Shown here: piece by piece, positions 18,291 to 48,636 of the stretch
Layout: each line of letters starts with the position of its first letter
Numbering within the stretch: the stretch's first letter is position 1
Virus record (IMG/VR): IMGVR_UViG_3300031920_000245
Span: 1 to 58,100 of that record
Length of the DNA: 58,100 bases
Source: a virus
Reading direction: 5' to 3' (one strand)
Made by a program: the position numbers and the translations under genes
Notes under the pieces: generated by a model
What the model was told of the DNA's origin: nothing
Database searches by the model: none
Seen by the model: the letters and a program-made list of their open reading frames with translations, nothing else

Positions 18291-19964
18291 TTATCTTAAT
18301 TCACCAATTCCAAATGTTTGTAGACCATCACAATAAATTCTACCGTAATATCTGTTCAATACCATTTTCTTAGCATAACGAGTCATGATACCACGAACCG
18401 GAGTGAAATCGAATGGATTGTACATTACAGGTGTTAATTGCATTGGTACGTAAGGAGCGTAAATGTAACCAGTTTCAAGGATTGAATTACCTTTATGACC
18501 AATAAGAACTGTGTTAGCAGGAGCATATGGATCACGGTATACTTGGTAACGACCAGAAAGTGTACCAATTTTTTCAATACCCATGTTATATTTATCTTGT
18601 TCTGGACCAGCATTAGATACGTGGAAGTATTCTAAGTCATCACATACAGCACTTACTTCCGGAGAAACAACAATCCAAGATGCACCACCACGAAGAGTAG
18701 ACTTATGAATTTGAGCAGAAATCTGATTGATTTTAGTAATCAATGTTTGATTCCAATCTTTTTGTGTTCCGTAATAAGATGTACTTTGTTTACGAAGACC
18801 ATTATAATCCCAACGAAGAGTCCAAGCAGCACCTCTTCTAAGATCACGAAGAATTTCACGATCAATTTCAGCAGCCATTTGCTCAGAAAGTAAAGCAGTA
18901 AGTTCCGCTTCAGCATCGATGTTGTGGAATGCACTAACATCTTGAGCAAGTTCAGGTGTCCATTGTGCTCTCATTTTACGAGATTCAACTGATACAGTAA
19001 CATCATCAAGTGTGAAAGTTACTTCAGCCATTCTTGAATCTTCTTCAAGATCAGAGTAAACTCTGTAAGCATATGTAAAAGTTGCAACACTTGAACTAGC
19101 TGATAACGCTTGATATCCATCAGCACCAGCATAAGTAATGTCAGCATAAATTTCGATAACACCAGTTTCTTTGTTCACAATAGCTTGACCATACTTTTGA
19201 ACTCTTACGTTGAATGGTAATGTATTACCAGCAGCGATTGATTCATCAGTATAAGGAGAAGGAGCAGTGAAATCTACATCAGATATAATTCTCAATGATG
19301 CTAAGAAACTTTCAGTATCAATAGGTACACCAGCAGGACCAATTAATTTACCTTGAAAATCTACAGTGAAACCACTAAGACTAAGTAAAATTTGTTTGTC
19401 ACCTACTGCCCAAGGAGTATGTGTAGTACCACCTGTAACAACAGTAATGTTTCCTTTTGAACGATCAAATAATGAAGTACCTTCTTCATTATACTCACTT
19501 GCATAGAATGCATCATATAATGAACGATCTTCAAATTGTGTTCTTCCTGAAGGAGCTAATTCTGCAGCATTTGAATATGCACCATCCGGAGAAGTGTTAT
19601 TGTATTGGTTAGGAGATAACTCAACTCTTTCACTTGCTTTTGGATTGATGTAATATAATTTACCGATAGGTAAATTTAAAGCTTGTACAGATACGATATC
19701 GTTTGCTAACAATTTAGCAAATACTCTACGAATAACCGGAAATGCAACTGTTTCGAATTGACCACTATTAGCTGAATCCGTAGATTCGTTAATCATTTGT
19801 GATAATTGATTTTCGAATAATTGTGCACAGTTTTCTCTTACGTTACCGTCCAAACCTTCTAACAAACCGATTTTGTCCCATCTGTTTGTGATAATTTCTC
19901 TTTGTTCACGAAGTTGTTTAAGACCAATGTTACCAACTACGCCTGAATCTATTAAATATCCCAT
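18291..19964 (-). CDS. gp23: Major capsid protein (T4 gp23-like)
   Basis: The 557-residue HK97-fold shell protein lies directly after protease and scaffold genes, in T4 order. Its N-terminus aligns with T4 gp23: a W-x(4)-LLEG segment at about 29-37, then LFENQ at 49-53. The next L/I-x-E site is I-N-E at residues 58-60, before STDSANSG. T4 gp23 is cut at residue 65 by gp21, so cleavage after Glu60 is predicted. Later segments QFETVAFPVIRRVFAKLLANDIVSVQ and the C-terminal NPFDFTPVRGIMTRYAKKMV are typical. There is no late motif in the 23-nt gap upstream, so it is transcribed with the scaffold gene or from a promoter inside it. Confidence 0.93.
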   Translation of the reverse strand: MGYLIDSGVVGNIGLKQLREQREIITNRWDKIGLLEGLDGNVRENCAQLFENQLSQMINESTDSANSGQFETVAFPVIRRVFAKLLANDIVSVQALNLPIGKLYYINPKASERVELSPNQYNNTSPDGAYSNAAELAPSGRTQFEDRSLYDAFYASEYNEEGTSLFDRSKGNITVVTGGTTHTPWAVGDKQILLSLSGFTVDFQGKLIGPAGVPIDTESFLASLRIISDVDFTAPSPYTDESIAAGNTLPFNVRVQKYGQAIVNKETGVIEIYADITYAGADGYQALSASSSVATFTYAYRVYSDLEEDSRMAEVTFTLDDVTVSVESRKMRAQWTPELAQDVSAFHNIDAEAELTALLSEQMAAEIDREILRDLRRGAAWTLRWDYNGLRKQSTSYYGTQKDWNQTLITKINQISAQIHKSTLRGGASWIVVSPEVSAVCDDLEYFHVSNAGPEQDKYNMGIEKIGTLSGRYQVYRDPYAPANTVLIGHKGNSILETGYIYAPYVPMQLTPVMYNPFDFTPVRGIMTRYAKKMVLNRYYGRIYCDGLQTFGIGELR

Positions 19965-19987: not shown

Positions 19988-21505
19988 TTAAATTATTTTT
20001 TTCTTATCATTTTTTTCAAGGTATTCTACTAAACCCCTGATTTTTTGAACGTGTTCGTTGTTTTCATACGCAGTATTTTCAATAACTTCGTCCAAATTTT
20101 GTTTTGAAGATGGTTGTACTGAATCACTATTTACTTTATCTTCTACAGTTTCATTTATTGTTTTAGAACCTTTTTTCATTTCAGTTAATAAACCATTATA
20201 TTTTGATTTAGAATCTGAGATTGATTTTGCTTCTTTTAACACATTTACGATCTTTATTTTATCTTCTTGTGTTAATGCGAAGTTTTCATTCATTAATAAA
20301 TTATTTGCATAAGCTAAATTTGTGTTAAATACAGCCATTTCTTGTAATTGTGTACGGAATTTTTCAAGTGCACCTTTATAACCTTCCATGATTTTGGTTA
20401 CGGTTTCTTGGTACTTTTTAGATTCATTGATCTTCTTTGTTAATTTTTTACTTTCAGCAATTAATGAAGCTTGTTTTTTATTTTCTTCACCTTCATTTTG
20501 TGGATTGTTGACACTACCGTAACGTTTGTGTCTTTGAGGTGCAAAATCTTTACCCGGTAAATGATCACCAGCAACTTGTTTACTTGAACTATGAGCCATG
20601 CCCGATGCTTCAGTAACTTCTTGCTCTCCCATTACAGAATCGATATCTTCATCAGATATAACATCTTCTTCATCAATCATCTGTGTAGTTGGACCACCTT
20701 TTTCACGACCTTTGTAATTTTGCTTTCCACCTTGATTTTTTTGTTCATCAACTTCCTCTTCATCAATCATTTGTGTTGTTGGACCACCTTTTTCACGTCC
20801 AGTGTAATTTTGTTTACCACCTTGATTTTTTTGTTCTTCAATGTGGGCAAATTCTTCTTGCATTTTATCAATTTCAGATAACGTTTCAGTTAATTTGTTT
20901 TTTAAAGATGCAAGATTAGTGAAAGGATCACTAACTGGTTGTTGTTTTGCTTGTTGCTCCATTTCATTTAATGTTTCTTCAATTTCATTAACTACGCTAA
21001 GTTCAGCATTGTCGTCAGCACAATCAATTTCCTTTTCAGTAGCATTAGGGTCAAGGTCTGTTATATCAAAATCTTTTTCATCATCCTCTTGGAGGTTTGA
21101 AATTGGCTTATCATCAGATTTCGTGATTGTATCTTTAAAAGTATCACCTTTTTCAGTTTCACCTTTACCTTGATTAGGTGTATCACCTTCAACATCAGCA
21201 GTAAAGCTTTTTTCACGTTCTTCTTTTATAACCTCTTTTTTTTGTTTATTTTTTTTCATAACAGATTTTTTATTATTATTATCAGATTCATCTAAAACAT
21301 TAGATTCTTTTTCATCATCGATTTTTTTATATGATTCTTTTTCTGATTTAGTATTATTATTTGTTTCTTCTTTTAAGATTTCTTGAAATTTATCTGGAAA
21401 CTTCTCAGCTAATTTTTTCTGAGCATTAACTTCAGCAGCTTCAGTGATTGCCTTATGATCAATTAAAGCATCCTGTATTATCGATTTTTTATTATCTTTA
21501 CCCAT
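19988..21505 (-). CDS. gp22: Prohead scaffolding core protein (T4 gp22-like by position)
   Basis: This 505-residue protein is extremely rich in Glu, Lys, Gln and Asp and is helix-prone. It lies between the prohead protease and the capsid gene, as gp22 does in T4. Low-complexity acidic segments (about 40-200) and a terminal helical region (IAESKKLTKKINESKKYQETVTKIMEGY) suit an assembly core that is degraded after shell assembly. L/I-x-E sites occur, such as AITE near residue 22. It is nearly twice the length of T4 gp22 and contains a 30-residue segment repeated in tandem. The assignment rests on composition and gene order. Confidence 0.75.
   Translation of the reverse strand: MGKDNKKSIIQDALIDHKAITEAAEVNAQKKLAEKFPDKFQEILKEETNNNTKSEKESYKKIDDEKESNVLDESDNNNKKSVMKKNKQKKEVIKEEREKSFTADVEGDTPNQGKGETEKGDTFKDTITKSDDKPISNLQEDDEKDFDITDLDPNATEKEIDCADDNAELSVVNEIEETLNEMEQQAKQQPVSDPFTNLASLKNKLTETLSEIDKMQEEFAHIEEQKNQGGKQNYTGREKGGPTTQMIDEEEVDEQKNQGGKQNYKGREKGGPTTQMIDEEDVISDEDIDSVMGEQEVTEASGMAHSSSKQVAGDHLPGKDFAPQRHKRYGSVNNPQNEGEENKKQASLIAESKKLTKKINESKKYQETVTKIMEGYKGALEKFRTQLQEMAVFNTNLAYANNLLMNENFALTQEDKIKIVNVLKEAKSISDSKSKYNGLLTEMKKGSKTINETVEDKVNSDSVQPSSKQNLDEVIENTAYENNEHVQKIRGLVEYLEKNDKKKII
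20667..20846 (-). repeat. 90-bp tandem repeat (two copies) inside the scaffold gene
   Basis: Two adjacent 90-bp units (20667-20756 and 20757-20846) encode near-identical 30-residue blocks built around EQKNQGGKQNY-x-GREKGG and PTTQMIDEE. The few differences are mostly synonymous or conservative, so the duplication is under protein-level constraint or fairly recent. Confidence 0.85.
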
Positions 21506-21635: not shown

Positions 21636-22346
21636 TTAGTTAAGTAAGAATCTATCAAGTGCACCATTTATTTTAGTGCTTTCTTCTTTTAAATAGATAC
21701 CATTTTTCTTAATATAATTTTCAGTCACTTCAGATTCTATATTTTTTACACCGGGAAATAAATTAGCACCGGGTGTACTTGGTGTAACAACAAGGTCAAA
21801 ACCAATCAATTCAAAATCACCCTGTACAATATTTTCACCACGTAATTCTTTAAGTGTACCAACACCACGAGATGAAATACCTAAAGTAATTCCATTTTGT
21901 AGATATAATAAAATTTTATCACCAATAACAGAACAAATTCCCATCTCTAAATATCCTCTGGTAACGATTAATTTTATCTGACCATATAATATGTTTTCTT
22001 TATCACCTTTACCCCACCACATTTTTGTGATTAGGTGAGAAATGTTATGTAATGATATTATACTACTATCGGGATGATCTGCTTCAGAAACAGAAGAGTG
22101 TGTTTGGATTAATTTTTCGTATTCAATTACTTGTGGAACTAAAACATCTTCTGGGTATATTCTACCGTTCTTATTTTTAACACCCCATTTTTGAAGAATA
22201 CAATTTATAAGTATAGGTTCATTGGGTTTTATTTCAATACTTTCATTAATTAGTAGATTTTTATTTAAGTCGGGACTAACATGACCAGCATCACGTTCTA
22301 TTAATATACCAAAACCAGTATCACCTTTTTCTAATATCTTACTCAT
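21636..22346 (-). CDS. gp21: Prohead maturation protease (T4 gp21-like)
   Basis: The 236-residue serine protease of the herpesvirus-assemblin-like fold shows the family motifs. NGRIYPEDVL is at about 60-69, the catalytic His is at 91 in SEADHP, and the nucleophilic Ser is in GISSRGVG at 157-163. The following FELIGFDLVVTPSTPGANL strand is also typical. It cleaves scaffold, capsid and internal proteins after L/I-x-Glu during head maturation. The gene stands first in the protease-scaffold-capsid series with its own late promoter. The L-x-E ends of several N-terminal segments in this window are likely substrates. Confidence 0.92.
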   Translation of the reverse strand: MSKILEKGDTGFGILIERDAGHVSPDLNKNLLINESIEIKPNEPILINCILQKWGVKNKNGRIYPEDVLVPQVIEYEKLIQTHSSVSEADHPDSSIISLHNISHLITKMWWGKGDKENILYGQIKLIVTRGYLEMGICSVIGDKILLYLQNGITLGISSRGVGTLKELRGENIVQGDFELIGFDLVVTPSTPGANLFPGVKNIESEVTENYIKKNGIYLKEESTKINGALDRFLLN

Positions 22347-27353: not shown

Positions 27354-28808
27354 ATGGCAAGAAAAAATACACGTTTAACTTCAAAAGCACTTGAATTTAT
27401 CACATACGTTTGTATTGGTAATAATAAAAAAAATAGTGGTAACGATCCCAATAATAATAACCTATTAAAGGGTAATAATAAAATATTACAATACAGTAAT
27501 AAAGTAGATAAAACTTGGGTAGCTAATATTGTAGATGCTGATGGTAACTCAATTAAGAAAAATGAAGATTTACCACCATTATTAGTTTATTTATTTTCTT
27601 ATTTTGCAAATCGATATAATATAGACCCAAATATATTAGCTGCACAGTGTTATGTATTAACTAAGTATAGAATGTGGTATTACGACTCATATAATTCAGG
27701 TGTTAATTTGTTTTCAATGCCAAATGTCTATAAATATATTATTTCAAATTCATCAAGTATATCACCTAAAATGACAGAAGAAGAAATTTCAACAATTACT
27801 GCAGGTTTAACAAATCCAGATGTTAAATCTTCTTATAATGTTGTAAATGGTGGTGCTGTAATGACATTAAATCGTCCAATTCTACATCAAAACATGATAG
27901 ATAATCCAGCTATAATGATTAAAGCACAAGCAAGATATTTAAAATATTTAGCGGATAATCAAAGCAGTAAATTAGCAAGTACAACGTTATTTAGTTACAG
28001 TGCTGGTGAACAATATGCTGAAACTACATATACAAGATCAATTGAAAAAGCAAATAATTTATTAGCCGATAAATTAGTCACTAAAGCCACTGATATTGTT
28101 TTAAGAACATTTGGTGTTTTAGGTGATAAAGATAATGATGCACTACCTAAAAATCCTAAATATAAACCAAAAGGATATTATTTCGGGTATGAGGAACATG
28201 TAAGACTAAAAGAAAAGTTTGATTCATTTAGTGCAAATGCTGTAGAATCAAAACGTTATGATAATCCTTCAATTAATCGAACAAACGATACTGAATATTC
28301 AACGGAAGAATATATTTTAAAGTTTCGTACTGATGCTGTTGAAGAAATGGTAGAACATAGGGTTTTAGCAAGTATTACACTAGCACAAGGTATTGTAGAA
28401 TCTGGAAATGGTAATAGTTTTTTAGCGAGAACTGGTAATAATCATTTTGGTATTAAGTGCCATAGTACGTGGGTAACACCTTCCGGTGATAAAAAACCGG
28501 GTATTTATTTTGAAGACGGTAGAGCAGATGTTGCGGGGAAAGGAAATCTTTCTTGTTTTAGAAAATATGCAAATGTACGTGAATCATATTGGGATCATTC
28601 AATGTTTTTAATTAAAAATGGTAGATATAAAAAACTATTTACTTTAAAATTAACTGATTATAAGGGATGGGCAATTGAATTACAAAGAGCTGGATATGCT
28701 GCTGCTAGTCACTATGCTAATGCATTAATTAATACAATTAGAACATATGAACTTTATAAATATGATGAGCAGGGGATTAAAATATTAAAGGATAAAGGTA
28801 AAATTTAA
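27354..28808 (+). CDS. Tail-associated cell-wall hydrolase (GH73 glucosaminidase) with degenerate transglycosylase-like domain
   Basis: Residues about 335-475 are a FlgJ/GH73-type N-acetylglucosaminidase: VLASITLAQGIVESGNG with the catalytic Glu at 349, then GNNHFGIKCH and YANVRESYWDHSMFL, then GYAAASHYANALINTI. The N-terminal part (about 80-225) has the frame of a lytic transglycosylase: YNIDPNILAAQ ... AQARYLKYLAD ... LFSYSAGEQYAETTY. However, the catalytic Glu expected after AAQ is absent (CYVLTKY). It would cut peptidoglycan locally as the tail penetrates. It lies 3 nt after the hub-like gene and overlaps the opposing gene's end by 4 nt. Confidence 0.85.
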   Translation: MARKNTRLTSKALEFITYVCIGNNKKNSGNDPNNNNLLKGNNKILQYSNKVDKTWVANIVDADGNSIKKNEDLPPLLVYLFSYFANRYNIDPNILAAQCYVLTKYRMWYYDSYNSGVNLFSMPNVYKYIISNSSSISPKMTEEEISTITAGLTNPDVKSSYNVVNGGAVMTLNRPILHQNMIDNPAIMIKAQARYLKYLADNQSSKLASTTLFSYSAGEQYAETTYTRSIEKANNLLADKLVTKATDIVLRTFGVLGDKDNDALPKNPKYKPKGYYFGYEEHVRLKEKFDSFSANAVESKRYDNPSINRTNDTEYSTEEYILKFRTDAVEEMVEHRVLASITLAQGIVESGNGNSFLARTGNNHFGIKCHSTWVTPSGDKKPGIYFEDGRADVAGKGNLSCFRKYANVRESYWDHSMFLIKNGRYKKLFTLKLTDYKGWAIELQRAGYAAASHYANALINTIRTYELYKYDEQGIKILKDKGKI

Positions 28809-29587
28809 ATTAATCCTTTATTTAATTCATGGAGATTAATAATATTAGCATTTGTTGAATCATCATTATCACAAACCATTTCATTTATTTTACTAATGGT
28901 TGTTTCTAATTTATCACTATTATTTTCTTCGTTTAATTTCTTTATATATTCCAAATTTTCTTTTTTGTAGGTTTCGAAAATTTGTTGTTTTTCTTCAGAT
29001 GTTGAGGATACTAATTTTTTAAATAATTCACTATCACCTTCATCCATTTGATTATACCTTTCATTGAATTTATCAATGGCAATTTCAATTACTTGTTCAT
29101 TTACATATTCAATATCTTTATAGGTTTCAGTGTATTTTGGTTCTTTTACGTAATCCAAAACATATGTAAATGCTTCGTGAATGTTATCGACATTAACATC
29201 TTGATTATTTGAAAGCATTTCTTCAACTAATATTGAGATCGAATTGAATAATTTTGTTTTTTCTTCATTAAGTGTAGGTATGTCTTCATCTGTGATAAAT
29301 TTATTAAGTTTATCGTGTTCAGTTTTCACTTCATTTAACGTAAAAACTTCAAATAATTTAATGTTTTTATCGATGTATCGAGAAGCAAGCATATCATTAT
29401 CAATGAATTTTTTATCAATGTTATTGAATACTTTATTTTCTAATTGTAGTATTTTAGATTCTTTAATTATATTACTTACTTCAGAGATTCGTTCTTTAGT
29501 TTCTGTAAGTAACATACCTTTGAAATATGCTTCTTTTAATTGCTTTGAAACAATTAAATTAATTATACCTATATTCACTCTTTCCAT
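28805..29587 (-). CDS. Helical hypothetical virion or core protein (260 aa)
   Basis: A Glu/Lys/Asn-rich, almost wholly helical protein (MERVNIGIINLIVSKQLKEAYF...), with long stretches of heptad-like leucine and isoleucine. No signal peptide, membrane segment or catalytic motif is seen. It lies directly downstream of the portal gene but has its own late promoter at 29606. Composition and neighbourhood suggest a head-core or portal-associated assembly factor; no homology supports this. Confidence 0.55.
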   Translation of the reverse strand: MERVNIGIINLIVSKQLKEAYFKGMLLTETKERISEVSNIIKESKILQLENKVFNNIDKKFIDNDMLASRYIDKNIKLFEVFTLNEVKTEHDKLNKFITDEDIPTLNEEKTKLFNSISILVEEMLSNNQDVNVDNIHEAFTYVLDYVKEPKYTETYKDIEYVNEQVIEIAIDKFNERYNQMDEGDSELFKKLVSSTSEEKQQIFETYKKENLEYIKKLNEENNSDKLETTISKINEMVCDNDDSTNANIINLHELNKGLI

Positions 29588-35329: not shown

Positions 35330-37921
35330 TTATACTTGAATTTCTTCACCCATACCACCATAACCAGTTTGACCTTGTGTACCACCACTTTTAAATTGAC
35401 TTGCACCTTTAAAAGGTTGTTTAGTGAACACAACACTATTTCCACCCGGTATTAATGAACCAATACCTCCGTTTTGTTCTAGTTGTTTAATTGCGTTAAA
35501 CATGTCATCTGGAGTTACATTTGGTAGTACTCTATTTACCATCTTACCTTTAGGTCCTGTTTTATCATTTAGAGTACTACTAAATACTTTAGTAAATACT
35601 TGTGTTAATTTAGGATCATTAGGGTTTTGTATTGATTTAGTTAGATCAAGTTTTTGATTTGGTTGTAATCCAATTGTAGCACCAGCAACTGCTCTACCTA
35701 CTTTTTTACCGAAATTTTTCAATCCCTCAAAACCAGCTTCATCAACAACTGATTCAAGTAATGAAATTTGTTCATCAATCATTTTATCTAATGATTTAAT
35801 CTTATCTGATTTTTTATCTTCAGTTAACATTGGTTTTTTAAAACCGAATTTTTCTTCAAGTCGATTTTTGATATATTTTCTGAATTTAACCTCAGATTCA
35901 TTCATTGTAATATCAACAGTACCTTGTTGTGCATTTACATTAACATCGATTGATTTAGAATCAGTACCTTCTGGACTTATAGAATTAAGTCCCATATTCT
36001 CAAACCCCGGAGTAATATCAATTGCATTAGTATCGTCTGTTATATCACCTGAGACTTCTGTATCATCAGTATAATTATTATCTTCCATGTTTGGTTGAAC
36101 TTCTACAGATGCTGGATCATTACCATCATCAGTAACTTCTCTCATAAGTCCTTTTATACCTTTTTTCTCAATACGACCTGCCATTGCACCACTTAGATTA
36201 TCAATAGCACTTCCGATACCTTCTTTAGTTAAGTTACCAAGTGCATCTCCAACACCTCGACCAACACCTTTACCAATTTCTTGACCACCTTTACTATCTA
36301 AAGCACCGCCAATTGCACCAATAATAGCTGGTGCTACTTCATTTAAGTCTTCTTCACTTATGTTAAATCTTTCTTTAAGTACACCAGCAACAAGAGGTGT
36401 CATTTCTTGAATTTGTTCTTCTGATAGTTTACCCATCAATTTTTGTATGGGATTTTTACCCATTCCTAAAAAACCTTCTTCAACTTCTTCTTCATTAACT
36501 TTATCTTTACCACCTATGGTTGTTGGGTTAATTTCCCACCAAAACATACTTTTTATCTTTGATTTTTTTCCGTCATTATCTTCAACTTCATTAAGATTAG
36601 CGAATGGTTTCATTGCTTCACCTATTCCAGCGTGACCAAATTCTTCTTCAAGAGAAGTTTCGATAGCTTCTGATGTGAAATTTGCCATACCAGCATAATC
36701 ATTTTCAGATAGTTCTTTATCCATTGCATAACCACTCATAAGATTCGCCATTTCATCAACACCACATTCCATAATAGATTCTGAATTATATCCTCTTTTA
36801 CTTACATATTCAGCGAAACCACATTCATCACATTGTTGTTCAGCCATTTCAGTTTCTTTACTAACATCAAGTGAGTCAATTTCTTCATCCGGAACAATTT
36901 TAAGAATCTTATTAGCCATTTCTTTTCTATCTTCAATTTCAATTTCTTTAATTTTATCTTGAAATGCTGTTAAATATGAATTAATAAATCCTTTAGTTTC
37001 TGTAGGTGTCATTTCTGACTTTCTTACTTTATTAGTTACTTTACCAACTAATTGTTCAATTTCTTTATTCTCATCTGAAAGTTCATCCATACCAATATTA
37101 AGGTCTTCATCTCCTTCAATACCATCATCTCCTTCAATACCGTCAACAGGTGCTTCAATACCATCAACACCACCTTCAATACCATCAACAGGTGCTTCAG
37201 AATCGGTTGCATCAACATTAATATCATCTATATTAATTTCATCTTCAGGAGTGGGGGTTTCTTCTTTTGGAAGATCAACACTATCAACATCTAATTCAAT
37301 GTCATCTTCTTTTTCTTTTTCAGTGGCAGCATCTAAATCGGCAGTTGCTTTTTCTGCTTTTTCAATTTCTTCACCAGCATCTTCAGAAACATCTTCATTC
37401 ACATCTTCCTTATCATCAGAGTTTTCTTCTTTTTTATCTTCAGCTTTATCTTCTTTCTTATCTTTAGCTTTGTCTACTTTCTTATCTTTAGATTTTTTGT
37501 CTTTTTTCTCGTCAGACTTTTCATCTTTTTTCGCTTCATTAATTTGTTGTTTTTCAACAACAGTTTCAGCGATAACTGGTTTTTCACCAAATGCTTCAGA
37601 GATAGTTAATAAAAACATATTACGTTTTTTTGATGCTTTCGCTAACGATTCAAATTGATATTCTTTGATGTTACTTTCTCCACCAATATATGCAAAATCT
37701 TCAACCAAAGGATTTTTTTGGCTATTTGATTTTTTGATATAATAATTATGATTTTCTTTAACGATACCATATGCTACCTTATCTGCACCTCTTTCGAAAT
37801 TAATTAGTTCACCTAAAGAATGACCTTTAGTTTCATTTAATTTTTTCTTATCTTTAGGAACTAAAGCTAATTCCTGTAATCTATTGAAGTAGATTTCTTC
37901 AGTTGAATATTTTTTTCCCAT
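35330..37921 (-). CDS. Large acidic putative internal head/core protein with L-x-E N-terminal tag
   Basis: The 863-residue protein opens MGKKYSTEEIYFNRLQELAL and reaches L-N-E at residues 28-30. That is a helix followed by an L-x-E protease site, like three other proteins here. A conserved-looking block follows (KGHSLGELINFERGADKVAYGIVKENHNYYIKKS). About 150 residues made almost only of K, E and D come next, then acidic repeats containing PVDGIEG. Later parts are Gly-rich (GAIGGALDSKGGQEIGKGVGRGVG) and helical. There are no membrane segments or catalytic motifs. Late expression, composition and the tag point to a component packed in or around the prohead core. Confidence 0.65.
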   Translation of the reverse strand: MGKKYSTEEIYFNRLQELALVPKDKKKLNETKGHSLGELINFERGADKVAYGIVKENHNYYIKKSNSQKNPLVEDFAYIGGESNIKEYQFESLAKASKKRNMFLLTISEAFGEKPVIAETVVEKQQINEAKKDEKSDEKKDKKSKDKKVDKAKDKKEDKAEDKKEENSDDKEDVNEDVSEDAGEEIEKAEKATADLDAATEKEKEDDIELDVDSVDLPKEETPTPEDEINIDDINVDATDSEAPVDGIEGGVDGIEAPVDGIEGDDGIEGDEDLNIGMDELSDENKEIEQLVGKVTNKVRKSEMTPTETKGFINSYLTAFQDKIKEIEIEDRKEMANKILKIVPDEEIDSLDVSKETEMAEQQCDECGFAEYVSKRGYNSESIMECGVDEMANLMSGYAMDKELSENDYAGMANFTSEAIETSLEEEFGHAGIGEAMKPFANLNEVEDNDGKKSKIKSMFWWEINPTTIGGKDKVNEEEVEEGFLGMGKNPIQKLMGKLSEEQIQEMTPLVAGVLKERFNISEEDLNEVAPAIIGAIGGALDSKGGQEIGKGVGRGVGDALGNLTKEGIGSAIDNLSGAMAGRIEKKGIKGLMREVTDDGNDPASVEVQPNMEDNNYTDDTEVSGDITDDTNAIDITPGFENMGLNSISPEGTDSKSIDVNVNAQQGTVDITMNESEVKFRKYIKNRLEEKFGFKKPMLTEDKKSDKIKSLDKMIDEQISLLESVVDEAGFEGLKNFGKKVGRAVAGATIGLQPNQKLDLTKSIQNPNDPKLTQVFTKVFSSTLNDKTGPKGKMVNRVLPNVTPDDMFNAIKQLEQNGGIGSLIPGGNSVVFTKQPFKGASQFKSGGTQGQTGYGGMGEEIQV

Positions 37922-39074: not shown

Positions 39075-39539
39075 TTATTTTTTATTCTCAGATAAATCTG
39101 GCATTGTTTCAGGCATTTTATCTGTATGTAGTTTATTAATAATTATATCGATTTTATCGATAATATCATAATGATCATTGTCATATAAAAAATCCAGTTT
39201 ACCTTTCATTAAATCAATTTTTCTTTTATGATCCGGTGAATCGTCTTCATTTACTGTACTCATTGTAGGTGTAACACTTTGTTTAGGTACTCTTTTAATT
39301 AATAGTCTATACAAGCTATCAATTACTTCGAAATCTTCTTCGGTATTTAAAAGGTTATCTAATTTTTGTTTTATTTGATCAACTTGAGCAATGTATTTAT
39401 CTTTATTAACTTCCGGAATAGCTTCATTTTGTAGTTGTATTTCTTCTGATTCATTTAATTGAGGTTTAGAATATGATGGATTTACTTTACCCATCATTTC
39501 ATGTAATAACTCCCTTGAGGATTTTTTTTCTTTTTCCAT
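39075..39539 (-). CDS. Putative head-packaged protein with capsid-targeting-like N-terminus (154 aa)
   Basis: The first 30 residues, MEKEKKSSRELLHEMMGKVN then PSYSKPQLNE, match the N-termini of the proteins at 45350 and 46050: a K-rich start, an (E)LL-x-E-R/M-M helix, a V-N-P turn and an L-x-E end. T4 internal head proteins carry such a short capsid-targeting helix, and gp21 removes it after L/I-x-E. The rest is helical and acidic, with two similar blocks (VDQIKQKLDNLLNTEEDFEVIDSLYRLLIKR and LMKGKLDFLYDNDHYDIIDKIDIIINKL) that look like an internal duplication. It leads a late operon. Confidence 0.6.
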   Translation of the reverse strand: MEKEKKSSRELLHEMMGKVNPSYSKPQLNESEEIQLQNEAIPEVNKDKYIAQVDQIKQKLDNLLNTEEDFEVIDSLYRLLIKRVPKQSVTPTMSTVNEDDSPDHKRKIDLMKGKLDFLYDNDHYDIIDKIDIIINKLHTDKMPETMPDLSENKK

Positions 39540-39555: not shown

Positions 39556-39564
39556 TATAAATAC
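39556..39564 (-). promoter_or_regulatory. Late-type promoter of the 39539-38009 operon
   Basis: TTAGTATTTATAAAAAA on the minus strand, 17 nt before the start. Confidence 0.6.
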
Positions 39565-43303: not shown

Positions 43304-43311
43304 CTAAATAT

Positions 43312-43386
43312 ATGGGTGTTCCGCAGATGGATATACGGACATGTTTTGGGGACATGTGTTCGTGGGTTCGAATCCCACTACCCATA
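43312..43386 (+). tRNA. tRNA, anticodon UGG (second Pro)
   Basis: Acceptor ATGGGTG/TACCCAT, anticodon stem CATGT/ACATG with loop TTTGGGG, T-arm GTGGG-TTCGAAT-CCCAC. The body differs widely from the first Pro tRNA although the anticodon reads the same. A one-base shift of the anticodon stem is possible. Confidence 0.75.
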
Positions 43387-43400
43387 CAATAATTAGTTAC

Positions 43401-43477
43401 CCTGCTTGTTCCGTGTGGGGTTATAAAAATACATTAATTAACGGAACTCATGATGGAGTCCTTGCCAAGAAAGTAGG
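43401..43477 (+). other. Structured tRNA-sized element without a T-loop
   Basis: CCTGCTT (43401-43407) pairs with AAGTAGG (43471-43477), enclosing GTTCCGT/ACGGAAC and a small CTC/GAG hairpin. It is 77 nt long and placed within the tRNA array, but no TTCRA loop or anticodon arm can be drawn. It could be an eroded tRNA or another small RNA. Confidence 0.35.
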
Positions 43478-43512
43478 ATAAAGATGTTATAATGTTGACT
43501 AATTATATATAT

Positions 43513-43584
43513 GGTGTTTGAAGCATTAATGTGATGTGCATGACTGTGGATCATGAGAAGACGGTTCAATACCGTCCTTACACC
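43513..43584 (+). tRNA. tRNA-His(GUG)
   Basis: Anticodon stem CATGA/TCATG with loop CTGTGGA. Extra G at -1 opposite discriminator C, the mark of tRNA-His. T-arm GACGG-TTCAATA-CCGTC. Two mismatches lie in the acceptor stem (positions 5-6). Confidence 0.85.
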
Positions 43585-43600
43585 CAAAATTTTTAAAGTT

Positions 43601-43747
43601 ATGGGAAAAATTAGAGTTGGAAATAAAGAAAATGCTATTCTAAACCGTGAATGGGGTGGACATGTGAAAAGTTGGTGTAAAAAATACACAGCTAAAACAC
43701 GTAGAAATCTTAATCAACGAATTATAAGAGAAGCAATGTTTGATTAA
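43601..43747 (+). CDS. Small basic protein (48 aa)
   Basis: MGKIRVGNKENAILNREWGGHVKSWCKKYTAKTRRNL... starts at the ATG right after tRNA-His; the longer frame would run through the tRNA. It is basic, with two Trp and a Cys, and no family is recognised. It ends 7 nt before tRNA-Gln, so it shares the tRNA transcript. Confidence 0.55.
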   Translation: MGKIRVGNKENAILNREWGGHVKSWCKKYTAKTRRNLNQRIIREAMFD

Positions 43748-43754
43748 ATTATAT

Positions 43755-43825
43755 TGACCTATGGTGTAATGGTAGCACAGGTGATTTTGGTTCACCCGGT
43801 CAAGGTTCGAATCCTTGTAGGTCAG
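43755..43825 (+). tRNA. tRNA-Gln(UUG)
   Basis: Acceptor TGACCTA/TAGGTCA, anticodon stem GGTGA/TCACC with loop TTTTGGT, T-arm CAAGG-TTCGAAT-CCTTG, discriminator G as usual for Gln. Confidence 0.9.
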
Positions 43826-43865
43826 CAATTTTTTTATTTCATATGTTTTTATTACCTTTACCCCT

Positions 43866-44249
43866 ATGAGAAAATACAATTTATTCCTCGATGATTTTAG
43901 ATCATTAGCTGATGCACATTCATATACATTTGAAATGCTTTATGCTACAAAAAAATGGGAAATAGTTCGTTCCTATGATGAATTCGTTAAATATATTGAA
44001 GAGAATGGTCTACCTGAAATGATTTCCTTCGACCACGATCTCGCTGACGAACATTATGATTACCAAAAAGAGATTAATTACGATCAAGTAGAAAAAACAG
44101 GATACCATTGTGCTAAATGGTTAATTAATTATTGTCTTGATAATAAATTAGATGTTCCGGATAAAATATTAATTCATTCAGCAAATACTGTTGGTTCTCT
44201 AAATATAAAATCATTATTTGACACTTATTGGAAAGTTTACGGTAAATAA
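43866..44249 (+). CDS. Receiver-like cyclic-phosphate-processing domain protein (cREC_REC type, 127 aa)
   Basis: YNLFLDDFR at 4-12, ISFDHDLADEHYD at about 53-65, KTGYHCAKWLI at 78-88 and ILIHSANTVGSLNI at 101-114 match the small receiver-like domain described as a cyclic-phosphate-processing receiver: LDD-x-R, SFDHDL and HSxNxxGxxNI. These are predicted from genome context to act on cyclic phosphates, for example at RNA ends. In a tRNA array a role in tRNA end repair is attractive but untested. It directly follows tRNA-Gln. Confidence 0.72.
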   Translation: MRKYNLFLDDFRSLADAHSYTFEMLYATKKWEIVRSYDEFVKYIEENGLPEMISFDHDLADEHYDYQKEINYDQVEKTGYHCAKWLINYCLDNKLDVPDKILIHSANTVGSLNIKSLFDTYWKVYGK

Positions 44250-44260
44250 AACATAAAATT

Positions 44261-44512
44261 ATGATACCAGATTACGAAGAAGAACATAGAATAGATCAAG
44301 CTAATAAAGCATATGAATTGTTTGAAAGATTTTTAGAATCACATGACGGTAAAAGAATATTCCCTGAACATAAGGAATTACTTGATTATTTTTTATTGAA
44401 AGAATTACATATTGACGAATTAAAAGAAAAAATTCACCAATATGAAAGTTTCTTTAATACCTTAAAAGGTTTTTTACCTCGTGATTTTTCGATTCATGAT
44501 AAATTAAGTTAA
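44261..44512 (+). CDS. Helical hypothetical protein (83 aa)
   Basis: MIPDYEEEHRIDQANKAYELFERFLE starts 11 nt after the receiver-like gene and is wholly helical and charged (HIDELKEKIHQYESFFNTLKGFL), suggesting a coiled coil. There is no known motif. It ends 1 nt before the end of the opposing gene at 44513. It could partner the preceding protein. Confidence 0.55.
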   Translation: MIPDYEEEHRIDQANKAYELFERFLESHDGKRIFPEHKELLDYFLLKELHIDELKEKIHQYESFFNTLKGFLPRDFSIHDKLS

Positions 44513-45265
44513 TTACCTCCTACCCCCTGAATAAGTTCTACTTCCGGTACTTCTTGTTGTTGTCGAACTTCTACCACTACCATTGTTGGACCTACTTGAG
44601 ATCGATGGTCTACTTGTTGTATTTCTATATATATTTGTCGGTCTTGTTGTACTTGTTGAAGTACGTGAATAAGTACTTGGGCGTGTACTACTATTTGTGG
44701 TAGTTCTATTATAATTAGAAGGTCTTGTTGACGTTCTTGTATTGTTATATACTGGTTTCATTGATGTTGTTCTTGAATATGTTGGTCCTGAAGTTCGTGA
44801 ATAAGTACTTGGACGTGTAGTTGATCTTGATGTATACGTATTATCATGGTTAGAAGTATACGTATTGTGATGAGAATAACGATTTCCTTGATTATATTTA
44901 TAATATGGTCCGTAATGATACGATATGGAACGATAATGATACGGATTATAATGACAATAGTAATTTCTTGGATAATGATAGCTATAATGATATGGTCTAT
45001 AACGATAATATGAATAATAATTTGATGGATATACGTAGCCAAAACTTACAATATAACGAACTTTTGGCTGACTATAGGATTCGTTATTATAATAATTATT
45101 AGTCACATAAGTATTATTTACAGCATCATTTACTGTATCATTTACAACCTCACTTACAGCATCATTTTCTTTATGTAATCTATATTTTTCGTAATTAGAT
45201 AATTCTTGTGCAAACATTTGTGTCACGAATATAATCCCGGTTAATATTAAATATAATTTTTTCAT
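44513..45265 (-). CDS. Secreted Tyr/His-rich low-complexity protein (250 aa)
   Basis: MKKLYLILTGIIFVTQMFAQ is a signal peptide without a lipobox. The mature protein has three parts: a polar segment with repeated V-N-D-T/A units (about 35-55), a Tyr/His/Pro-rich segment of about 75 residues (YSYYRYRPYHYSYHYP and similar), and a C-terminal 110 residues of repeated S/T-R-P-S-x-Y-S/N-R-T units. No enzyme motif is visible. It has a late promoter. The basic, aromatic, disordered tail could bind polysaccharide or the cell surface, as an exported late factor; the function is unknown. Confidence 0.7.
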   Translation of the reverse strand: MKKLYLILTGIIFVTQMFAQELSNYEKYRLHKENDAVSEVVNDTVNDAVNNTYVTNNYYNNESYSQPKVRYIVSFGYVYPSNYYSYYRYRPYHYSYHYPRNYYCHYNPYHYRSISYHYGPYYKYNQGNRYSHHNTYTSNHDNTYTSRSTTRPSTYSRTSGPTYSRTTSMKPVYNNTRTSTRPSNYNRTTTNSSTRPSTYSRTSTSTTRPTNIYRNTTSRPSISSRSNNGSGRSSTTTRSTGSRTYSGGRR

Positions 45266-45282
45266 AGTAGTTTTGTTTTTAA

Positions 45283-45291
45283 TATAAATAC
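45283..45291 (-). promoter_or_regulatory. Late-type promoter of the Tyr/His-rich protein gene
   Basis: TGTATTTATATTAAA on the minus strand, 18 nt before the start. Confidence 0.6.
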
Positions 45292-45324
45292 AATTATCAT
45301 ACCAAGTCTTTAATTAAAAATTAT

Positions 45325-45333
45325 GTATTTATA
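45325..45333 (+). promoter_or_regulatory. Late-type promoter of the 45350 gene
   Basis: TGTATTTATATAAAA, 17 nt before the ATG at 45350. It lies inside the longer open frame, which fixes the start. Confidence 0.6.
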
Positions 45334-45349
45334 TAAAATATTGGTTATT

Positions 45350-46009
45350 ATGAAAAAACAAACAGATAAGGAATTATTATTCGAAAGAATGCATAAAGTT
45401 AGTGGTATGCCACTAAATGAAAATTTTAAACAAGCTGAAGAATTCACACCACATGGTACATACACTGTTTCAAATAGTGGTGGATATGAAATAATGTTAA
45501 ACGATTCTGGTGATGGTGCAAAGGTTCGTGATGCATATGATTCAGATAATCCAAAAACCTCAGATTGGTTAGAAATAGAACATGTTACTGGTGAAGATGG
45601 TGAATTAGAACCTGTTATCGACCCTAATGGATATAATATTCCATTGAATCAGGTGATGAGAGTTAATGAAGATGATGATAAAGTTACTGCTGCTGATGAT
45701 AGTGAACCTGAAGAAACCGAAGCATGGCAAGGTGGAATCTCAGTGGATGAAGATGATATAAATGAAGATAGTTCTAGTGAAACACCAATTCATAAATGGG
45801 TAATGTTTGCATTTAATTATCCTCATGGTTTTATTGAAGAAGTTTGGGCAGATGCTGGTGAATCAACAATAAATCATTTATCATCTAAATTTTCATCTTT
45901 ATACAATAGGGTTGGTTCAAGTTCAGTTATAAATAAATTTTATACTGAATTAGATGCTGGTAATCAAGCAAAATTAGAGAATTGGGTTATGGAAAACTAT
46001 CAAGGATAA
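45350..46009 (+). CDS. Putative head-packaged protein with capsid-targeting-like N-terminus (219 aa)
   Basis: The start is the ATG at 45350, because the upstream frame contains the late promoter. The N-terminus MKKQTDKELLFERMHKVSGM then PLNE (residues 1-24) is the same helix-plus-L-x-E design as in the proteins at 46050 and 39075. After Glu24 comes an acidic body with a short beta-like segment (HGTYTVSNSGGYEIMLNDSGDGAKV) and a C-terminal helical part (WVMFAFNYPHGFIEEVWADAGES...). No enzyme motif is clear. If cut by gp21, about 195 residues would be left inside the head. Confidence 0.62.
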   Translation: MKKQTDKELLFERMHKVSGMPLNENFKQAEEFTPHGTYTVSNSGGYEIMLNDSGDGAKVRDAYDSDNPKTSDWLEIEHVTGEDGELEPVIDPNGYNIPLNQVMRVNEDDDKVTAADDSEPEETEAWQGGISVDEDDINEDSSSETPIHKWVMFAFNYPHGFIEEVWADAGESTINHLSSKFSSLYNRVGSSSVINKFYTELDAGNQAKLENWVMENYQG

Positions 46010-46010
46010 A

Positions 46011-46039
46011 AAATAATTCACTTTTTTTGTAACATTTAA
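46011..46039 (+). repeat. 29-bp direct repeat, copy 1
   Basis: It is identical to 46536-46564 and contains TTCACTTTTTTTGTAAC. It directly follows the stop of the first tagged gene; the second copy follows the stop of the second. This copy holds TGTAAC but no CGTAT box. Confidence 0.85.
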
Positions 46040-46049
46040 AATAAAAAAT

Positions 46050-46535
46050 ATGAAAAAGAAAACAGATAAAGAACTTCTTTTTGAAAGAATGGAAATAGTT
46101 AATCCTGACTTTAATAAACCCGAATTAGCTGAAGTATCTGATAAAAACATTCCAATTAATATGTATAGAAAATTATATTTATTGGCGAAAGATACTACTG
46201 GTGAATTATTAAAAGAATTTGAGACATTATTAAATTTTCTATTTAATGGACAAACACCACCACATATTATAACATCACTTTCAATATCTAATTCTCCAGA
46301 TGAATTCATGCGTAATGTGGCTAGTTTTGAGGGATTAAACGAGAATGATATATTAGAAGAATTGGAAGAAGATATTGGTGGTACAAAAGATGCTGAATAT
46401 AGAAGAACCATTCAATTATTTGAAGAAATATATAAAAATAAAGGTCTTTATTATGCTTTAGCTTTACTCTATGATAGTCAATATGATAGAGAAGATATTA
46501 AGAATATGATGGAACTTATTTATCCAAAAAAATAA
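46050..46535 (+). CDS. Putative head-packaged protein with capsid-targeting-like N-terminus (161 aa)
   Basis: MKKKTDKELLFERMEIVNPD then FNKPELAE (residues 1-28) nearly repeats the start of the preceding protein; after Glu28 the two are unrelated. The body is helical and acidic (LKEFETLLNFLFNGQTPPHI..., EGLNENDILEELEEDIGG), ending in YDREDIKNMMELIYPKK. It follows the 45350 gene by 40 nt, and both are followed by the same 29-bp repeat. The shared head with different bodies argues for a targeting or processing signal rather than common enzymatic function. Confidence 0.62.
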   Translation: MKKKTDKELLFERMEIVNPDFNKPELAEVSDKNIPINMYRKLYLLAKDTTGELLKEFETLLNFLFNGQTPPHIITSLSISNSPDEFMRNVASFEGLNENDILEELEEDIGGTKDAEYRRTIQLFEEIYKNKGLYYALALLYDSQYDREDIKNMMELIYPKK

Positions 46536-46564
46536 AAATAATTCACTTTTTTTGTAACATTTAA
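46536..46564 (+). repeat. 29-bp direct repeat, copy 2
   Basis: An identical copy of 46011-46039. Here it supplies the TTTG/TGTAAC part of the second tRNA-cluster promoter. Confidence 0.85.
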
Positions 46565-46584
46565 TATTTATATACGTATATTTG
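46551..46584 (+). promoter_or_regulatory. Promoter of the second tRNA-cluster leader
   Basis: TTTGTAAC (46551-46558) followed by CGTATATTTG (46575-46584). TGTAAC to CGTATA is 22 nt, and the second box is a perfect TAnnTTTG. Confidence 0.65.
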
Positions 46585-46623
46585 CATAGAAGATTGTATT
46601 TATAAAAAATAAAACACGATAAA

Positions 46624-46734
46624 ATGAAAAATTTAATGGACATAATGTTAATTTCTGCACTCGTTGCCTTATTATGGGCAGATAACGATGTGGATGAACT
46701 ATGTTCAGTCGGGTTTAATAAATTAAGATGTTAA
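46624..46734 (+). CDS. Leader ORF, hydrophobic (36 aa)
   Basis: MKNLMDIMLISALVALLWADN then DVDELCSVGFNKLRC. It has a membrane-spanning-like first half. The codons for S-V-G-F near its end contain AGTCGGGTTT (46707-46716), a copy of the 3' arm of the terminator that follows 40 nt later. A ribosome at that point would hide this copy. It could be a genuine small membrane peptide, a control element, or both. Confidence 0.45.
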   Translation: MKNLMDIMLISALVALLWADNDVDELCSVGFNKLRC

Positions 46735-46790
46735 CTAAGCTAACTTTTTAAATAGAAAAACCCGACTTGAGTAATTAAGTCGGGTTTTTT
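46707..46790 (+). promoter_or_regulatory. Attenuator-like terminator/antiterminator
   Basis: The terminator is AAAAACCCGACTT (46756-46768) with AAGTCGGGTTTTTT (46777-46790). The upstream AGTCGGGTTT (46707-46716) can pair with AAACCCGACT (46758-46767) and block it. A GTTCTTTGACGTATTGGG sequence resembling rRNA-leader boxA follows at about 46808. Confidence 0.5.
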
Positions 46791-46886
46791 GTTTTATATA
46801 AGTAATTGTTCTTTGACGTATTGGGAAATTAAAATGGTGTTCAAGTTATCTGGATAATCCAGATGGGTTGAATATTAAACATAATT

Positions 46887-46932
46887 AAGGGTTATTATAT
46901 CGAATAATTTTCGTAAATTCGAACCCTTAATA
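46887..46932 (+). other. Hairpin preceding tRNA-Asp
   Basis: TTAAGGGTT / AACCCTTAA encloses CGAAT/ATTCG. It ends 1 nt before the tRNA acceptor and is probably a processing or spacer structure. Another hairpin, ATCTGGA/TCCAGAT, lies at about 46848-46865. Confidence 0.45.
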
Positions 46933-46933
46933 T

Positions 46934-47010
46934 GGTCTACGGGGCTGCTAGGTGTGGCTGCCGGACTGTCACTCCGGAGATTCAGATGGGTTCGAACCCC
47001 ATGTAGACCG
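46934..47010 (+). tRNA. tRNA-Asp(GUC), first copy
   Basis: Acceptor GGTCTAC/GTAGACC, anticodon stem CCGGA/TCCGG with loop CTGTCAC, T-arm ATGGG-TTCGAAC-CCCAT, discriminator G. Confidence 0.9.
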
Positions 47011-47028
47011 CTTTTTTACATATTGACA

Positions 47029-47037
47029 GTATTTATA
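47029..47037 (+). promoter_or_regulatory. Late-type promoter of the HNH endonuclease
   Basis: CAGTATTTATATT, 16 nt before the ATG at 47053. It gives the homing endonuclease its own late transcript inside the tRNA array. Confidence 0.6.
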
Positions 47038-47052
47038 TTAAATATAAATTTT

Positions 47053-47754
47053 ATGAAAAGTAAAAGATATGAAAAAGAATTTTTTAGTCAAATAGTTAAA
47101 CATTCACATAATCTAACAGACATTGCTGAAAAATTAAATTTAAAACCACATTGTGGTAATAGAGATACAATAAAAAAATATATTAACATATATAGATTAG
47201 ATACATCACATTTTAGAGTAAGATATGAATTAAGAATAAAAAGGAAAATCCCATTATCTGAAATAATGATAAGTGGATCAACATATTCAACAACTAATTT
47301 AAAAGAAAGATTATATGATGAGGGTTTAAAAGAAAGAGAATGTGAGAAATGTGGACAAGGGGAAATATGGTATGGTGATAATATGTCTTTAATTCTTGAC
47401 CATATTAATGGGGATAGTAGTGATCATAGGTTTGAAAATCTTCGTATATTATGTCCAAATTGTAATGCAACATTACCAACACATGGTGGTAAAAATAAAA
47501 GAAATAAAAAATATTATTATTATAATGATTCTAATCAATATTGCAATTGTGGTAATAAAAAAAATAATAAAGCAGAATTGTGTAAAAAATGTAATGATAT
47601 TAATATTAGAAAAGTAAAGAGACCTACATATAATCAATTAATTAAAGAAATTAAAGAAACATCGTATTGTGCTGTAGGTAGAAAATATAATGTTAGTGAT
47701 AATACAATAAGAAAATGGATAAAGTTTTATGAAAATAATAATACACCCTCGTAG
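47053..47754 (+). CDS. HNH homing endonuclease (233 aa)
   Basis: The start is the ATG at 47053; the longer frame runs through tRNA-Asp. A helix-turn-helix-like head (NLTDIAEKLNL...RDTIKKYINIY) is followed by the HNH core: zinc pair C97-x2-C100, the catalytic LILDHINGDSSDHRFENLRILCPNCNAT with D116-H117 and N128, and zinc pair C134-x2-C137. A second Cys cluster (YCNCGNKKNNKAELCKKC) and a C-terminal HTH (AVGRKYNVSDNTIRKWIKFY) should bind DNA. The last codons run into the next tRNA-Asp: the stop TAG supplies that tRNA's bases 8-10. Confidence 0.88.
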   Translation: MKSKRYEKEFFSQIVKHSHNLTDIAEKLNLKPHCGNRDTIKKYINIYRLDTSHFRVRYELRIKRKIPLSEIMISGSTYSTTNLKERLYDEGLKERECEKCGQGEIWYGDNMSLILDHINGDSSDHRFENLRILCPNCNATLPTHGGKNKRNKKYYYYNDSNQYCNCGNKKNNKAELCKKCNDINIRKVKRPTYNQLIKEIKETSYCAVGRKYNVSDNTIRKWIKFYENNNTPS

Positions 47755-47818
47755 TTCAGTCGGTTAGAATATAAGCCTGTCACGCTTAAGGTCGCCCGTT
47801 CGAGTCGGGTCGGGGGTG
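47745..47818 (+). tRNA. tRNA-Asp(GUC), second copy
   Basis: Acceptor ACCCTCG/CGGGGGT, anticodon stem TAAGC/GCTTA with loop CTGTCAC, T-arm GCCCG-TTCGAGT-CGGGT, discriminator G. It is divergent from the first Asp tRNA, and its 5' end overlaps the HNH gene by 10 nt. Confidence 0.88.
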
Positions 47819-47827
47819 CAGACAAAT

Positions 47828-47900
47828 ACTCCTATAACTCAGTTGGTAGAGTGCTTGTGTTACATACAAGATGTCATCGGTTCAAGTCCGGTTGGGAGTA
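47828..47900 (+). tRNA. tRNA-Val(UAC), first copy
   Basis: Acceptor ACTCCTA/TGGGAGT, anticodon stem CTTGT/ACAAG with loop GTTACAT, T-arm ATCGG-TTCAAGT-CCGGT, discriminator A. Confidence 0.88.
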
Positions 47901-47940
47901 CAATTCGATTTTTCCAGACACGTCTGGAATATTCAAAAAT

Positions 47941-48012
47941 GCTGCGTTAGTGAAGTGGTTATCACGTCAGACTTTCAATCTGGAGTCGGGAGTTCAATTC
48001 TCCTACGCAGTA
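47941..48012 (+). tRNA. tRNA-Glu(UUC), first copy
   Basis: Acceptor GCTGCGT/ACGCAGT, anticodon stem TCAGA/TCTGG with loop CTTTCAA, T-arm GGGAG-TTCAATT-CTCCT, discriminator A. Confidence 0.85.
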
Positions 48013-48109
48013 CAAATTTTTTATTGGTACAAAATTAACAAAAGAGTTAGTATTTAATATAAATGATAAAAAAAGATGTTTTTATTGGTATAAAACTAAC
48101 AAATTATAT

Positions 48110-48181
48110 GGCGCATTCTTCTAACGGCTAGGAAATCGGGTTTTCATCCCGGCAATGGGGGTTCGATTCCCCCATGCGTTA
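48110..48181 (+). tRNA. tRNA-Glu(UUC), second copy
   Basis: Acceptor GGCGCAT/ATGCGTT (two G-U pairs), anticodon stem TCGGG/CCCGG with loop TTTTCAT, T-arm GGGGG-TTCGATT-CCCCC. Its 3' end overlaps the stop codon of the opposing gene. Confidence 0.85.
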
Positions 48182-48631
48182 CAATGTTTCTTCTTCTTTC
48201 TTACCATGATCACCCATATAAGAAAGATGGAAGAAACAACTATAAAGTGTCCACATAAACAATAAATTAAGTATCATTTCCATAGGATTTGCGATTATTA
48301 ATCTCCAAGATACTTCAAGTGAGAACATTGGTAAGCTAAGAAAACATAATATCCAAATTGTTTTAAATGTGTGCCATAAATCTGTCGTAAAGACCAAAAC
48401 TGATTTAAATATTGGGGTTAATATTTTTTTAAATATTTCAGGTATGTTTTTATCATCTAAAAAATATTTATTTTTATGACTTACTGCGGGATTTGCCCAT
48501 TGTTGGAATTTTTCGTTTTTAATTCTAGACCAGTATGTTTTTTTATATTTATGTCTAATTTTATCAGACATTCCATTAAAAAAACCACCGATAGCAATTA
48601 AAATATATGGTGTTAAAATATAAAGTATCAT
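48179..48631 (-). CDS. Membrane protein (150 aa)
   Basis: An N-terminal transmembrane helix (MILYILTPYILIAIGGFF) is followed by a basic cytosolic part. Two more hydrophobic spans come near 88-110 and 115-138 (FKTIWILCFLSLPMF, PMEMILNLLFMWTLY). The C-terminus is HGKKEEETL. No family is recognised. It has a late promoter 6 nt before the start and runs against the tRNA array, ending inside tRNA-Glu. Confidence 0.6.
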   Translation of the reverse strand: MILYILTPYILIAIGGFFNGMSDKIRHKYKKTYWSRIKNEKFQQWANPAVSHKNKYFLDDKNIPEIFKKILTPIFKSVLVFTTDLWHTFKTIWILCFLSLPMFSLEVSWRLIIANPMEMILNLLFMWTLYSCFFHLSYMGDHGKKEEETL

Positions 48632-48636
48632 TTAAA

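Follow-up and report, generated by a model that had tools for sequence, protein, structure and literature searches.

We identified a short N-terminal tag shared by otherwise unrelated proteins within a single clade of uncultured, T4-like jumbo phages, and we consider it likely to be a removable, clade-wide capsid targeting sequence that loads proteins into the head for injection. Packaging, cleavage and injection are inferred, and no virion proteomics is available for this clade. Comparison of the sequences establishes the tag family itself, its N-terminal place, its terminal site and the match of this site to those of the prohead protease and capsid protein, the diversity of the tagged bodies, the enrichment of late-promoter-like motifs, and the depletion of the protease motif in the bodies.

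The window and its phage clade

The window, meaning the whole stretch of DNA analysed here, is a 58,100-base IMG/VR fragment of a T4-like myovirus. Its T4-like head module includes Gp23, Peptidase_S77, Portal_T4 and a T4-type terminase, each above the Pfam cut-off. At least 80 other viral contigs encode a capsid protein 69-85% identical to that of the window, and because many of these contigs are 246-365 kb long, the window is assigned to a clade of jumbo phages. There is no close isolate for the capsid protein; the nearest include Rhodothermus phage RM378 (28% identity) and Flavobacterium phage immuto (42%, C-terminal part only). More relatives of the capsid protein come from metagenome bins labelled Bacteroidota or Bacteroidales, which makes Bacteroidota the likely host of the clade. 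Ribosomal protein bS21, sought as a possible tie to the Bacteroidota jumbo phages already described as encoding it (PMC9723584), was not found in 13 records.

Several other features of the window were observed in passing. A cluster of 22 tRNA genes (43227-55235) contains a phage tmRNA (51847-52215) with the predicted tag peptide AEDLMSIPTFLNRSVPAVASEAELAMAA. An adjacent gene pair at 55307-57029 has, by eye only, the look of a sulfotransferase and a glycosyltransferase. Also by eye, signal-peptide-like N-termini are present at 5341-5841, 17757-18191 and 44513-45265, in or near the structural region, and these proteins are predicted to be secreted or lipoprotein-like.

A family of tagged proteins

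The tag was first seen on further genes by reading two complete-size relatives of the window. An HMM of the tag, iterated over eight 320-365 kb records plus the window, recovers 46 tagged genes, all with E <1e-6, and the next match has an E-value of 0.019. The consensus is M-K-x(2-8)-K-x-R-L-F-E-x-M-x-K-V-x(3-9)-(L/I)-x-E. Across the 319 loci covered, the family comprises 152 distinct proteins from the one clade, with records of up to 365 kb, and the bodies behind the tag fall into 43 clusters, 26 of which are singletons. Large records carry two to eleven tagged genes scattered across the genome. The tag is strictly N-terminal: of the 157 matches at E<=1e-4, 156 coincide with an ATG start, and no internal match was found. 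Records were fetched and read 20 kb at a time, and a few genes that span two pieces were therefore missed or cut.

A degenerate DNA pattern for the core KQRLFEVM matched 68 stretches in IMG/VR. The tag was absent from the four nearest records outside the clade, with the positive control found in 9/9 clade records. The 26-residue consensus had no match in 50,697 phage records, although so short a query is insensitive.

Leaders in the window

A preliminary description of the window had proposed that four of its proteins share an N-terminal leader of this kind, cleaved after Glu24, Glu28, Glu30 and Glu30, and are packaged in the head and injected with the DNA. All four N-termini and glutamate positions proved correct on re-reading. 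An HMM built without any sequences from the window was compared with its 429 frames and found three of the leaders, with the next matches at E-values of about 0.3-0.9 (Table 1). These are the leaders of the neighbouring genes at 45350 and 46050, which do have unrelated bodies as had been claimed, and that of the 154-residue protein. Reversed or shuffled frames of all the genomes reach at best 0.33 against the full tag HMM. Given these two results, the likeness of the leaders is not due to chance.

Table 1. Features of the window discussed in the text
Feature	Position	Strand	Remarks
Late-promoter-like motif GTATTTAT	45325..45332	+	25 bases upstream of the 45350 start codon
Late-promoter-like motif GTATTTAT	39557..39564	-	25 bases upstream of the 39539 start
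Putative capsid-targeting tag MKKQTDKELLFERMHKVSGMPLNE	45350..45421	+	Predicted cut after Glu24; leave-window-out HMM E 5.7e-7, family HMM
Putative capsid-targeting tag MKKKTDKELLFERMEIVNPDFNKPELAE	46050..46133	+	Predicted cut after Glu28; leave-window-out HMM E 5e-5
Putative capsid-targeting tag MEKEKKSSRELLHEMMGKVNPSYSKPQLNE	39450..39539	-	Predicted cut after Glu30; leave-window-out HMM E 5e-6
Possible divergent tag-like leader of 863-residue protein	37832..37921	-	hhalign E 4.6e-5 to 0.004; relatives e.g. MKNHTSKDAFYERLRTLAEVNKISIKES
Tagged protein, putative cargo, 219 residues	45350..46009	+	AF2 model of low confidence
Tagged protein, putative cargo, 161 residues, orphan body	46050..46535	+	No relative in viral contigs by whole-protein scan; no Pfam match to the body
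Tagged protein, 154 residues, cluster 0	39075..39539	-	Most frequent tagged cluster, 37 members
gp21-like prohead protease	21636..22346	-	Peptidase_S77 E 7.4e-16; phrog_207
Gp23-type major capsid protein	18291..19964	-	Pfam Gp23 3.9e-74; predicted cut after INE, residue 60
Predicted scaffold (gp22 position)	19988..21505	-	Between protease and capsid genes; (L/I)-x-E 2.99x expectation
Predicted small core protein	28805..29587	-	Adjoins portal gene; (L/I)-x-E 1.94x expectation
863-residue predicted prohead core/internal protein	35330..37921	-	(L/I)-x-E 1.72x expectation; in 31/37 related records

The fourth leader, that of the 863-residue protein, is at most a divergent member. It was missed by the HMM built without the window. 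Alignment of the orthologous N-termini with the tags by hhalign gave E-values of 4.6e-5 with a trimmed alignment and 0.004 with another, where other head proteins mostly gave 0.008-0.7 and an 81-residue protein gave 0.0042. Its N-terminus may resemble the tag, but this evidence is only suggestive. An (L/I)-x-E is kept at residues 28-30 in 30 of 40 orthologues. Since the whole protein is enriched in this motif (Table 1), we infer that it is likely to be mainly a prohead core protein. Two genes lie between it and the 154-residue tagged gene, and likewise in the two relatives that were read. One (38261-39070) matches phrog_36119 (6e-51) and is nucleotidyltransferase-like by eye only; the other (38009-38254) encodes the 81-residue protein, with (L/I)-x-E at residues 37-39 in 27/27 sequences.

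The shared N-termini could in principle stem from genes duplicated recently, or from a common regulatory element in the DNA, and two of the tagged genes in the window are adjacent. However, the leaders at 45350 and 46050 are identical in 13 of 14 residues, while five of these 13 residues use different synonymous codons (AAG GAA TTA TTA TTC versus AAA GAA CTT CTT TTT), and hence the likeness is kept at the level of protein and not of DNA. The same holds in the relatives, where synonymous sites of tag pairs within a genome have diverged far (pS 0.60, pN 0.28, 118 pairs) and the residues are kept. With bodies unrelated and tags scattered over the genome, this explanation is all but excluded.

Whole-protein scans of viral contigs for relatives of the 45350 and 46050 proteins found none. 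These scans were empty because the bodies turn over quickly, and the tag had to serve as the query. Parts of the 45350 protein do recur: its first body domain shares 77% identity with a stretch inside a relative's 863-residue-type protein, and its C-terminal domain is common to another tagged protein (L252:11057-11704). AF2 models of the 45350 and 46050 proteins have mean pLDDT values of 52 and 41, respectively, and are uninformative; both place a helix over roughly residues 6-17 of the tag.

The terminal (L/I)-x-E matches the sites of head proteins

The T4 protease gp21 cleaves behind L/I-x-E, and the capsid targeting sequences that it removes are short leaders at the N-terminus (PMC9026906, PMC7411985). 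The tag ends in the same motif. Of 138 tags, 107 have an (L/I)-x-E in the stretch 10-22 residues past the helix; only 14 have the next commonest residue in place of the glutamate, and a control stretch farther on has glutamate in 19. The middle position is not fixed (N, K, T, S, D, Q or A), with LNE (79) followed by LKE (9), LTE (9), INE (8), IKE (4), LSE (3), LDE (2) and others. In the tagged metallopeptidases described below, the NE is invariant even though the linker of one member is up to 13 residues longer.

The gp21-like protease claimed in the preliminary description is confirmed (Table 1). It carries an (L/I)-x-E near its own N-terminus, at residues 33-35, and 60 of 63 orthologues keep this site, again with no fixed middle residue. 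The INE at residues 58-60 of the capsid protein is kept in 73 of 74. Both the tag and the capsid N-terminus contain LFE...INE; kinship between them was considered and is unsupported (hhalign E 0.05).

Two properties of the tag fit less well. The P1' residue after the terminal site is often acidic or Asn (E, D or N), unlike the Glu-Ala bond cited as an example of a gp21 cut in T4 (PMC9026906), and this counts against the capsid-targeting reading. In addition, 15 of 152 tags are without an [LIMV]-x-E anywhere in residues 18-45, including those of the clearest enzymes, a P-loop kinase and an ADP-ribosyltransferase. A T4 leader with Asp at position 10 blocks processing and still allows targeting (PMC9026906). 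Because targeting and processing are thus separable in T4, the site-less tags may be packaged uncut; it is also possible that they are cut at the L-F-E of the helix, or that the tag has another role in these proteins. This L-F-E is a second candidate site, lying inside the helix. Its middle residue is nearly fixed and the residue that follows is usually large, which looks more like a constraint on the helix; cleavage there was set aside but is not excluded.

Alternatively, the helix might target the tail, the neck, the replication compartment or a membrane, with (L/I)-x-E forming part of the signal rather than a protease site. The tags without a terminal site are in favor of this, as are several tagged genes located between tail or neck genes. 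However, the end of the tag matches the protease and capsid sites and persists despite changes in linker length, and the bodies avoid precisely that motif. We regard this alternative as very unlikely.

Tagged bodies avoid the protease motif

Cargo that survives in the head should avoid the motif of the protease, whereas core proteins that are chopped should be rich in it. In the bodies of 31 tagged clusters, [LI].E has an observed-to-expected ratio of 0.77, with the expectation taken from their own composition. Length-matched untagged ORFs have a ratio of 1.23 (sd 0.14), and the fraction at or below 0.77 is 0.0015. Eight motifs were covered by the test; the tagged bodies show no depletion of [LI].D, [LI].K, E.[LI] or [LI]..E. 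Thus the bodies avoid exactly the protease motif, as expected if cargo survives the protease, which gives indirect support for packaging.

The bodies of cluster 0 are an exception and keep normal numbers of (L/I)-x-E. This bears on a second alternative, in which the tag marks scaffold-like proteins of the prohead core that are chopped and expelled rather than injected. Cluster 0 is acidic, and its genes adjoin the core-like 863-residue gene in relatives; its members, including the 154-residue protein of the window, are possibly core proteins rather than cargo. In contrast, most other bodies are depleted in the site, compared to about three times expectation in the scaffold, and enzymes are among these bodies. 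As an account of the tag in general, this alternative is unlikely.

Late-promoter-like motifs

It had also been claimed that all four genes of the window have or follow late promoters, and this holds at the level of the motif. The 45350 gene, the 154-residue gene and the 863-residue gene each have their own GTATTTAT upstream. The 46050 gene has none and follows the first tagged gene after 40 bases, in the same direction. Across the clade, GTATTTAT is located 22-27 bases upstream of many tagged starts and also of head genes. It stands within 90 bases of the start in 15 of 42 tagged genes, as opposed to 494 of 3592 untagged ones (p 3e-4). Only about a third of tagged genes are near a late motif, and many are in operons.

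A strong motif, GTATTTATA, is situated about 25 bases before the start codons of most head and tail genes in the window. The T4 late promoter has a core of the TATAAATA type; GTATTTATA is the reverse complement of such a core, and therefore has the opposite sense to T4. A separate AATAATTCACTTTTTTTGTAACATTTAA stretch lies 3' of each of the two adjacent tagged genes (46003-46040 and 46530-46565), with TTTGTAACATTTAA found in the window only at 46026 and 46551. This stretch could be terminator-like or a second type of promoter.

Tagged bodies include predicted enzymes

Tagged bodies above Pfam cut-offs are AAA_33 (a P-loop kinase), Cupin_2, ART-PolyVal (an ADP-ribosyltransferase), GP88, DUF3293 and DUF5661. 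A family of about 150 residues with an invariant HExxH, the metallopeptidases, is tagged in eight records, and its gene adjoins that of a second tagged protein of 324-793 residues. Neither the ADP-ribosyltransferase nor the metallopeptidase had a match in PDB searches, and PADLOC gave one weak match (capP, 7e-5) among 44 tagged proteins. ADP-ribosyltransferase and zincin domains recur in proteins predicted to be injected (PMC5512222). T4 Alt is an ADP-ribosyltransferase and is injected.

The tag appears to be exchangeable. The P-loop kinase is found both tagged and untagged in relatives. The syntenic gene upstream of the metallopeptidase carries a different leader in most genomes, e.g. MEAEKKSNLFEEHLRKIKYNYDYKINES. 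However, in one relative (L304) the same gene has the standard tag, followed by a C-terminal domain that shares 55% identity along 110 residues; two kinds of leader, each with an (I/L/V)-N-E end, thus substitute for one another. This second conserved leader family, e.g. MKDIKKDKLFEEQLRKIKYRYDYKINES, ends in (I/V)-N-E and was observed on the gene before the tagged metallopeptidase at L188:5165-6235, L149:14334-15041 and L174:4318-5070 and in orthologues.

Proposed function

The capsid-targeting reading is supported by a leader shared at the protein level, its (L/I)-x-E end, the matching protease and capsid sites, the late-promoter-like motifs, the effector-like cargo in relatives and the depleted bodies. 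In the proposed mechanism, tagged proteins would be made late in infection alongside the head proteins. The conserved helix K-x-R-L-F-E-x-M-x-K is inferred to bind the prohead core and would carry the protein into the prohead, where the gp21-like protease would cut after the terminal (L/I)-x-E and free the body. The freed body would then be retained in the head with the DNA and enter the next host cell. Those predictions of the preliminary description that sequence could test are all met for three of the four proteins, and packaging with injection is supported to that extent for these three; their location in the head, their cleavage and their injection remain inferences.

A bolder reading, which we favor by a narrow margin, is that the tag is a modular code for loading effectors. 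The leader would be exchangeable and have two parts, a core-binding helix and a protease site, placed on at least 43 types of body; the injected set, with an ADP-ribosyltransferase, metallopeptidases, a kinase and a cupin among its members, could be read from sequence alone, and the second, (I/V)-N-E type of leader could replace it at the same gene.

Virion proteomics is the usual way to learn which proteins a phage injects, and it cannot be applied to uncultured phages. If the capsid-targeting reading is correct, the tag provides a catalogue of candidate injected effectors for a jumbo-phage clade that is widespread, as judged from the capsid relatives. Most tagged proteins are of unknown kind and would thus be candidates for counter-defence or host takeover. 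The tag would also be a ready N-terminal means to load reporters into such heads.

Comparison with known systems

In phage P1, the N-terminal 30 residues of DarB suffice for entry of a reporter into the capsid (PMC9024508). That signal belongs to one large protein, P1 seemingly has no separate scaffold, and no family of tagged cargo has been described. In SPN3US and phiKZ, a Gp21-related protease removes N-terminal propeptides after Glu, and ejection proteins are present in the head (PMC10052503, PMC7411985). However, the SPN3US motif is A-x-E, the propeptides of these phages are mostly long (111-254 residues), and no common short tag has been described there. The polyvalent proteins of phages and plasmids are similarly predicted to be injected and contain ADP-ribosyltransferase and zincin-like metallopeptidase domains (PMC5512222), but are large multidomain chains, whereas the tagged proteins are mostly single-domain with a removable leader. 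The polyvalent criterion of several disparate domains per chain is not met, as most tagged bodies have 90-300 residues and at most one recognised domain.

The closest likeness is to the T4 capsid targeting sequence of IPI, IPII, IPIII and Alt together with gp21. In both, one short N-terminal leader ending in L/I-x-E is found on otherwise unrelated proteins, and as in T4 the genome encodes a gp21-type protease and a Gp23-type capsid protein bearing the same site. The internal cargo of T4 likewise includes an ADP-ribosyltransferase (PMC9026906, PMC12373910). The clade tag differs in having its own sequence of about 22-32 residues, compared to about 10 in T4, in its use up to 11 times per genome, in the absence of the site from some tags, and in a cargo that includes HExxH metallopeptidases, a kinase and a cupin. 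Thus, the T4 kind of capsid targeting is already known, and what is new is a tag with a sequence of its own and an unusually broad set of tagged bodies; if our reading is correct, T4's strategy has been extended to many enzymes.
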